Assembly: GCF_009905725.1 (NCBI RefSeq)
Contig: NZ_JAAAKV010000002.1
Coordinates: forward strand, 186,001 to 250,000
Direction: 5' to 3'
Length of the DNA: 64,000 bases
DNA from: Emticicia sp. CRIBPO
Lineage (GTDB): Bacteria > Bacteroidota > Bacteroidia > Cytophagales > Spirosomataceae
Below are positions 42,982 to 44,103 of this stretch, piece by piece. Both the position numbers and the translations under genes were made by a program. A model generated the notes under the pieces. It worked only from the letters and a program-made list of their open reading frames with translations. It was not told the origin of the DNA and did not search any database. Numbering within the stretch: the first letter of the stretch is position 1; the number at the start of each line of letters is the position of its first letter.

Positions 42982-44103
42982 ATGACAAATTCTACGACAC
43001 CGGAACAGGATGTTTTTCATCAAATTGTTTTGCTGATAGAACAATCCAGAAACCGCACATTTAACAAAATCAATGAAGAACTCATTTTGCTCTATTATCA
43101 GGTTGGTGAAATAGTTTCAAACAAAGTAGCTGAAGGCAACTGGGGCGATCAGACTGTCAATAGCTTAGTGGAATTCATAGGCAAAAAATTACCCAGGCAA
43201 AACGGCTTCAACCGAAGAGGATTATACAGAATGAAGCAGTTCTTTGAGACTTACTCGCTACAAGGCTTTATGTTACCTTTAACCCCTCTGATACAGAGTT
43301 ATTTCAATGAAAATAAGAACCTTACAATTGTGTCGGCAGTGCCGACACAATTAATGTATACAACAGAACTCCATCAAAAATTCATACTTGGGATTTTGAC
43401 TCAAATTACCTGGACAAATCATCTTGAAATTTTATCTTCCACTAGCTCTTCTGAAGAAAAATTCTTTTATCTCGTACAATGTATAAAAGAAAAATGGTCA
43501 ATGAGAGAACTAAGACGACAACTTTCAAGCAGCTATTTTGAAAGAACATTTCTCGCCAAAGAATTTGTGTCGGCACTGCCGACACAAATTCATCATAACT
43601 TTTTAAAAGATCCTTACATTTTTGAATTCCTTAATTTACCTCAGCATCACTCTGAAACAGACCTTGAGAAGGCTCTTGTATTAAATCTTCAAATGTTTAT
43701 TCTCGAAATAGGAAAAGGGTTCAGTTACATGGGCAGTCAATATAGATTACAAGTGGGTAATAAAGATTACTATTCCGACTTACTCTTCTACCACCGGGAT
43801 TTACAATGCCTCGTATTGTTTGAATTAAAAGTCCGGGAGTTTGAGCCCGAGTTTTTAGGTAAGCTAAATTTCTACCTGGAGGCTCTTGACCGGAATGTCA
43901 AAAGAAAACATGAAAATCCCAGTATAGGAATTTTACTGTGTAAAGGAAAAGATAATGAGGTAGTGGAATATGCCATGGCAAGAAACAACTCTCCTACTTT
44001 AATAGCTGATTATCAAACCCAGCTCATTGACAAGAGGGTATTGGCAAACAAACTACACGAATGGACAGAACAGCTTTCAAGATTGCATAAAACTGATATC
44101 TGA
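42982..44103 (+). CDS. DUF1016 (YhcG-like) PDDEXK nuclease
   Basis: Predicted nuclease of 373 residues. The N-terminal DUF1016 helical domain (LLYYQVGEIVSNKVAEGNWG, then the FNRRGLYRMKQFFETY block) is followed by a PDDEXK-type C-terminal domain with SDLLFYH and LFELK near 262-283 giving the D...ExK site. YhcG proteins are often linked to restriction-modification or phage genes, but here it stands alone. The frame contains two perfect palindromes that encode SAVPTQL (about 115-124) and SALPTQI (about 194-203). The second falls where relatives have a LPAPQ-type segment. Confidence 0.87.
   Translation: MTNSTTPEQDVFHQIVLLIEQSRNRTFNKINEELILLYYQVGEIVSNKVAEGNWGDQTVNSLVEFIGKKLPRQNGFNRRGLYRMKQFFETYSLQGFMLPLTPLIQSYFNENKNLTIVSAVPTQLMYTTELHQKFILGILTQITWTNHLEILSSTSSSEEKFFYLVQCIKEKWSMRELRRQLSSSYFERTFLAKEFVSALPTQIHHNFLKDPYIFEFLNLPQHHSETDLEKALVLNLQMFILEIGKGFSYMGSQYRLQVGNKDYYSDLLFYHRDLQCLVLFELKVREFEPEFLGKLNFYLEALDRNVKRKHENPSIGILLCKGKDNEVVEYAMARNNSPTLIADYQTQLIDKRVLANKLHEWTEQLSRLHKTDI
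43326..43352. repeat. perfect palindrome, copy 1, inside the DUF1016 frame
   Basis: Arms AATTGTGTCGGCA and TGCCGACACAATT (13 bases each) around a single G. Shares the core TTGTGTCGGCA-N-TGCCGACACAA with copy 2. Confidence 0.85.
43561..43591. repeat. perfect palindrome, copy 2, inside the DUF1016 frame
   Basis: Arms GAATTTGTGTCGGCA and its complement (15 bases each) around a single C. In frame in both copies and not seen elsewhere in the window as a palindrome. Confidence 0.85.

Follow-up and report, generated by a model that had tools for sequence, protein, structure and literature searches.

The window, the whole 64,000-nt stretch of Emticicia sp. CRIBPO DNA analysed here, carries on its forward strand a gene of the DUF1016/YhcG family with two palindromes inside its reading frame. 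The features concerned are the following.

42982..44103, + strand: DUF1016/YhcG family PD-(D/E)XK nuclease gene, 373 aa (open reading frame with PF17761 and PF06250 matches)
43024..43545, + strand: DUF1016_N domain, aa 15-188, helical in the model (PF17761, 1.7e-28)
43597..44049, + strand: YhcG_C nuclease domain, aa 206-356 (PF06250, 4.1e-58; closest in structure to EndoMS/NucS, with Hjc also among the matches)
43326..43352: palindrome copy 1, arms of 13, centre G (43339), in a DUF1016_N loop, encoding IVSAVPTQL (from the sequence)
43561..43591: palindrome copy 2, arms of 15, centre C (43576), in the interdomain linker, encoding FVSALPTQI (from the sequence)

Both palindromes that the earlier note had described are present, with arms of 13 and 15 and different central bases, and both are in frame with the gene: copy 1 reads AATTGTGTCGGCA-G-TGCCGACACAATT with 13 perfect pairs, and copy 2 has 15 perfect pairs around TTGTGTCGGCA-C-TGCCGACACAA. 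With up to three mismatches allowed, the 17-mer core occurs in the whole window at these two places only, and shuffled versions of the window contained a mean of 0.15 core matches, two matches being reached in 1 of 100. Across the 6.06 Mb of the organism's own genome, TTGTGTC-N9-GACACAA with at most one mismatch is confined to the same two palindromes, and the 17-mer core with two mismatches allowed has five more places, each with two mismatches. The genome has a second DUF1016 gene, from another subfamily, which carries at the site defined below as native a perfect palindrome of other sequence, TTGCGAATACA-C-TGTATTCGCAA, and that word has no other place in the genome. In the predicted window protein, pLDDT falls below 50 at residues 117-121 and 195-212, and both palindromes overlap these low-confidence loops; since, moreover, copy number varies among relatives, it is fair to regard copy 1 as extra and copy 2 as lying at a variable segment, as the earlier note suggested. 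In this protein Pfam finds the two DUF1016 domains and nothing else, with no DUF285-type 25-residue repeats, and the PADLOC profile PDC-S02, a candidate phage defence family, is matched at 2.2e-117.

Genes for comparison came from several sources. An exact 23-mer scan of GTDB genomes gave 19 loci in Bacteroidota, Clostridia and Betaproteobacteria, 16 of them with a DUF1016 match (15 reading frames, and L013 as a broken gene) and three without one (L018, plus L019 and L024, two contig ends that overlap). A homology-only collection was built on 198 Bacteroidota genomes, 68 of which have a PF06250 match; 111 of the 147 matches listed were used (30 returned loci, 80 fetched stretches and the window gene), and most of the 36 left out were fragments or had short frames. 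To these were added records of plasmids, phages, viruses and E. coli. Homology-found and palindrome-found loci were pooled into 160 distinct frames of at least 120 aa, and the homology-only test sets comprise frames of at least 230 aa, namely 110 from Bacteroidota and 26 from elsewhere (shorter frames dropped: 5/115 and 1/27), the latter set spanning Proteobacteria, Actinomycetota, phages and E. coli yhcG, whose alleles are not independent of one another.

Nearly every DUF1016 gene examined carries an internal palindrome, the letters of which differ from gene to gene. The palindromes are about 27 nt long and number one to several per gene, with ends that are mostly AATT, a variable middle and a centre that is mostly CA-N-TG. 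Under a strict criterion, by which an odd-centred palindrome must form 10 or 11 of 11 pairs and have its central base at codon position 1, 102 of the 160 genes hold 125 copies, against a mean of 1.9 copies and a maximum of 6 in 200 synonymous shuffles; the five other centre/phase classes together give 8 copies in these genes, and 572 other frames at the same loci (514 kb) give 8 in the strict class and 35 over all six classes. The homology-only sets behave alike, with strict copies in 65 of the 110 Bacteroidota genes (73 copies; shuffle mean 0.92 genes, maximum 3) and in 19 of the 26 genes from elsewhere (22 copies; shuffle mean 0.34, maximum 2). When the definition is relaxed to an in-frame odd palindrome, the counts rise to 104/110 (synonymous-shuffle mean 15.1, maximum 23) and 23/26 (mean 4.0, maximum 11), with 11/110 and 12/110 in the other two codon phases. 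Nine of the 136 genes miss the relaxed criterion (L134, L137, L078, L143, L095, L059, L169, L177 and L168); among them are the sole cyanobacterial gene (L169), a gene whose palindrome lies in another codon phase with 12 of 13 pairs and a mismatch adjoining the centre (L143), and one with an even-centred palindrome of 14-bp arms (L177). Partial genes with DUF1016_N are evenly divided, 6/12 having a palindrome and 6/12 none, and none was found in the three weak nuclease-domain relatives that lack DUF1016_N. The earlier note would have given up its reading had palindromes been absent from close relatives and elsewhere; relatives do have them. One further frame is recorded here, of 433 aa, with two DUF1016_N domains, no nuclease domain by profile and no palindrome by criterion (L335, G122:C87:95000-97400).

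The constraint acts on nucleic acid, not on peptide. A peptide-level explanation is ruled out by the synonymous shuffles, by the other-phase (L143) and even-centre (L177) cases, and by copies outside the gene body. At L052, L076 and L183/L200, the gene's own word stands, exactly or nearly so, before the likely start, for which the first ATG was taken as a guess. The copies upstream of the start, those downstream of yhcG and the one in another codon phase identify the DNA palindrome, rather than the peptide, as the selected object. The earlier note would likewise have yielded had the same protein segments stood in other codons that break the palindrome; the reverse is seen, in that relatives with different codons and different residues keep it. 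The earlier note's idea that the gene maintains an internal palindromic site as DNA is strongly supported, and it holds across the DUF1016 family.

Most palindromes lie in the part of the gene that encodes DUF1016_N, immediately ahead of the conserved LSWSH/PWGH segment or in nearby loops. At the native site, where the centre lies six codons before the W of this motif, the mean score is 6.63 of 11 over 154 genes, 66 of which score at least 9; sites one to four codons off this position average 2.2-3.7, with only 0 to 3 scoring at least 9. Native-site scores are bimodal, many genes having no palindrome there and copies instead in an inserted upstream loop. The 125 strict copies fall mainly in the loop region (70) and at the native site (46), while the linker between the domains has 4 and the remaining 5 lie in other places, and in many genes tandem units stand 36-57 nt apart.

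The two arms covary. The 84 native sites chosen for a score of at least 7 contain 66 different words, and their own arms are 0.915 complementary against 0.405 for swapped arms (maximum 0.467 of 1000), the corresponding values for 144 unchosen native sites being 0.646 and 0.319 (maximum 0.371); neither these swaps nor the copy-to-copy counts given below are corrected for relatedness between genes. In the 84 sites variation is greatest at pairs 3-7, whose complementarity is 0.93, with 0.96-1.00 at pairs 5, 7 and 8 and 0.70 at pair 1, and in score-selected sites complementarity extends to 13 pairs and then lies at about 0.2-0.3. Because choice by score biases the per-pair rates at pairs 2-8, unselected anchored sites were used instead; in these, pairs 2-9 lie above the expectation from column letters alone, and pairs 1, 10, 11 and 13 are close to what fixed letters alone give. 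Comparison of copies within one gene shows, at pairs 5-9, 136 cases changed on both arms with pairing kept, 27 one-sided and 27 not both paired; at pairs 1-4, 83 with pairing kept and 75 one-sided; and at pairs 10-13, an excess of one-sided changes (136) over those with pairing kept (50). Given this excess and the near-fixed-letter level of pairs 1, 10, 11 and 13, the covariation rests mainly on pairs 2-9. The process can be seen between L106 and L096, whose proteins are 90% identical and which differ by two compensated double changes, altering the protein from S to N and from T to S.

Complementary changes and drifting words are also what symmetric mutation without function would yield, if template-switching correction of quasi-palindromes copied one arm onto the other. 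This process is improbable as the explanation, for it leaves unaccounted for the restriction to one family, the homologous place across phyla, the mostly AATT ends, the CA-N-TG centre and the amino-acid changes in both arms, and the 572 other reading frames hold just 8 palindromes in the same phase. A separate idea, that words are kept distinct between paralogues of one genome, was dropped for lack of signal: 1 of 63 such pairs agrees at 7/8 or more, against 120 of 3853 pairs between genomes, and the paralogues' words are clearly neither distinct nor shared.

The element keeps to the DUF1016 locus in the 198 genomes, although the exact 23-mer in GTDB genomes also stands at the three loci without a DUF1016 match named above. 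A consensus pattern, AATTG-N6-CA-N-TG-N6-CAATT, scanned over the 198 genomes, matched at 27 places, at 22 of which the free middle is complementary in 5 or 6 of its 6 pairs. Of these 22, 20 fall within a DUF1016_N match by Pfam, another immediately precedes a DUF1016_N gene (L183), and the last is at a 40-residue DUF1016 fragment detected with a purpose-made profile at 5e-5 (L197/L203). The other five matches have 0-2 of 6 pairs complementary, with no DUF1016 match at the four examined, and a reverse-pattern control scan gave one match (G010). In viral contigs, the same pattern at 80 loci among the matches listed has random arms, with none at 6/6, one at 5/6 and none at a DUF1016 match. A shorter 19-mer was found in nine viral stretches, none of the nine with a DUF1016 match; these are judged unrelated to the element because their contexts are other ones and the AATT ends are missing.

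These results bear on the proposal of a mobile palindromic unit. A selfish unit comparable to RPE or REP, inserting in frame and spreading, would be in keeping with the tandem and scattered copies within one gene and with gene remnants whose palindromes are intact, though these remnants were found via the palindrome. It would nevertheless be expected to disperse, whereas complementary-arm matches to the consensus occur only at DUF1016 loci in the 198 genomes, and the native position is common across phyla. Units do duplicate within a gene, but the confinement to one locus and the homologous position make mobility a very improbable main explanation, and in that role this part of the earlier note is not supported.

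Several stretches met in these scans are recorded as observations in their own right. Five viral contigs (L029, L031, L032, L034 and L035) have in common GTGTCGGCATTGCCGACAC, whose arms form 11 pairs, within or next to a small frame and with no DUF1016 match. The two Oscillospiraceae contig ends L019 and L024, which share sequence, hold a perfect 23-mer beside a frame that by eye resembles a DUF3800 protein, and the Curtobacterium DUF1016 gene likewise has an annotated DUF3800 gene in its vicinity. At L201 (G117:C2:206200-209400), a truncated DUF1016 gene with its palindrome lies between frames resembling, by eye, type I restriction hsdM and hsdS, and at L204 (G002:C1:1945500-1949800) a DUF1016 gene is split by frames that by eye resemble an insertion sequence, both palindromes of its N part being perfect.

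The yhcG gene of E. coli offers a view of the element within one species. Three copies are present in K-12 yhcG, forming 10, 9 and 10 of 11 pairs and each with one or two mismatches, the O157 gene has one (11 pairs), and that of strain 103 has two (11 and 10); a further copy is centred 27 nt past the yhcG stop in the 5 E. coli alleles tested. Among the copies, the inner CAGAC is constant and the outer bases differ, remaining mostly paired. Some yhcG alleles are disrupted: a D72-type match (L151; 8/50 among the matches listed) stops at gene base 406, at the third palindrome, and SC516 yhcG (L152; 2 of the matches listed) breaks at 385, beside IS1, again at the third palindrome. Breaks at that palindrome were thus seen in 2 of the 4 disrupted alleles viewed, possibly by chance.

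A further question is whether the selected form is DNA or RNA. Type III antitoxins consist of RNA repeats, and the tandem units spaced 36-57 nt apart resemble them; almost all copies, whether coding, near a start or near a stop, sit in probably transcribed places. On these grounds the nuclease mRNA could form stem-loops that the nuclease itself or a host RNase binds or cuts, providing autoregulation or an RNA antitoxin inside the toxin message. An RNA stem, however, predicts many G-U steps, and at pairs 2-9 of the 84 sites (672 cells) G-T mismatches (16) are no commoner than A-C mismatches (18), with 23 of other kinds; score-selected sites follow the same trend, with no excess of G-T over A-C. 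Rfam gives no match for the window and for yhcG a single match at E 0.5, far under the gathering score. The pair beside the centre, impossible in an RNA loop, is complementary at 70% of sites, a weak argument given that its letters are mostly fixed. The RNA reading is consequently regarded as unlikely, and DNA is favoured as the selected form on the pattern of mismatches. Since copies within a gene vary in their middle yet remain paired, folded DNA, as a hairpin or cruciform, is favoured over a duplex operator read as sequence, and the differing middles of the E. coli copies are a poor fit to simple sequence-specific dimer binding. Reading as sequence may nonetheless apply to the AATT ends and to the CA-N-TG centre.

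What reads the site is a further matter. A word that varies would suit a reader of structure, and such a reader could be some other protein of the host, recognising the palindromic DNA and thereby silencing or protecting the gene. That protein would have to ignore other loci, and the palindrome goes with DUF1016_N (0/3 weak nuclease-only relatives against 6/12 partial genes containing the N domain, both small numbers), so that a host factor seems a poor prospect. The simplest reader would be the DUF1016 protein itself, and among the ideas of the earlier note self-recognition appears to fit best. Models built from 20-row alignments (pTM 0.42 and 0.50) and searched whole returned mainly the nuclease domain, which is matched to EndoMS/NucS at Z 8.6 over 97 residues at 3.1 A and more weakly to Hjc resolvases at Z 6.1, a likeness that may reflect only a common arrangement.

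On the evidence of sequence and predicted fold, we infer, at a little under an even chance, that the palindrome acts in cis as a symmetric or hairpin/cruciform DNA site and that the nuclease encoded by the gene probably recognises it to control itself. The palindrome would be read as symmetric or folded DNA by the encoded protein, whose C-terminal domain resembles nucleases of DNA structures and mismatches. The weakest step is the passage from binding or cutting of its own gene to self-control, which could take the form of autorepression or of a roadblock on a dangerous nuclease. Branched foreign DNA could lift this control, which would fit the defence operons that hold some members. Among 11 plasmid records, three place the gene in an operon for type I restriction or BREX-1 (L167, L169; L166), two have an integrase nearby (L164, L165), and the remaining six show neither beside it. 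It is reasonable, though unproven, to see the protein as a defence nuclease that tightly controls itself.

More tentatively, and with less expectation of being right, these genes may form a new class of self-marking nuclease genes, in which the coding sequence would hold the hairpin or cruciform substrate of its own structure-specific nuclease, substrate and enzyme would co-evolve with shape kept over sequence, and self-binding or self-cutting would set the activity of a phage-defence nuclease. Altogether, a widespread uncharacterised nuclease family that includes E. coli K-12 yhcG has a conserved cis element hidden from protein-level annotation; the element gives direct access to the question of what DUF1016 proteins recognise, and it is a clear example of covariation that lies within coding sequence and seemingly acts on DNA.

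Among known systems, integron attC sites, the IntI recombination sites between cassettes, are folded DNA of varying sequence, recognised by its shape; the likeness would lie in recognition by shape, and the difference in that attC sites are recombination sites and do not lie inside a nuclease gene. The DUF1016/YhcG family (PF17761, PF06250, COG4804), to which both domains assign the window gene as a typical member, is described in the covered part of PMC1189080 as a predicted DNA nuclease with an uncharacterised N-terminal domain, and that part makes no mention of a palindrome in the gene. Nor was a palindrome in DUF1016 genes mentioned in the literature covered, which included few subscription papers, no bioRxiv preprints, and portions of PMC1189080, PMC4316617, PMC11341870, PMC2996958, PMC3733652 and PMC8649781; an earlier description is possible. 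PARCEL elements (DUF285) are likewise symmetric repeats in coding sequence, and the available portion of their description gives them as probably spread by transfer, found mainly in unassigned and membrane-targeted proteins, and leaves selection on palindromicity open (PMC2996958). They differ in forming 75-nt tandem DUF285 units of imperfect symmetry, repeats of a type that the window protein does not have. Rickettsia palindromic elements also lie within reading frames without disrupting them, but, going by the section of the source covered, they measure about 100-150 nt and occur in intergenic regions, RNAs and genes (PMC4316617), whereas the present element is about 27 nt long, belongs to one gene family rather than to many unrelated genes and has covarying arms. 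The REP/RAYT system, in the extract covered, combines palindromes of 20-40 bp, some of them intragenic, with a DNA-cutting protein, as may the DUF1016 genes (PMC3733652). REP units are nonetheless dispersed, present in high copy number and marked by a GTAG/CGTC tag, in contrast to the two copies of the word in the present genome, which lie in one gene and whose consensus has no such tag, and the REP-associated protein is a Y1 tyrosine transposase, whereas the gene described here encodes DUF1016_N together with a PD-(D/E)XK domain.
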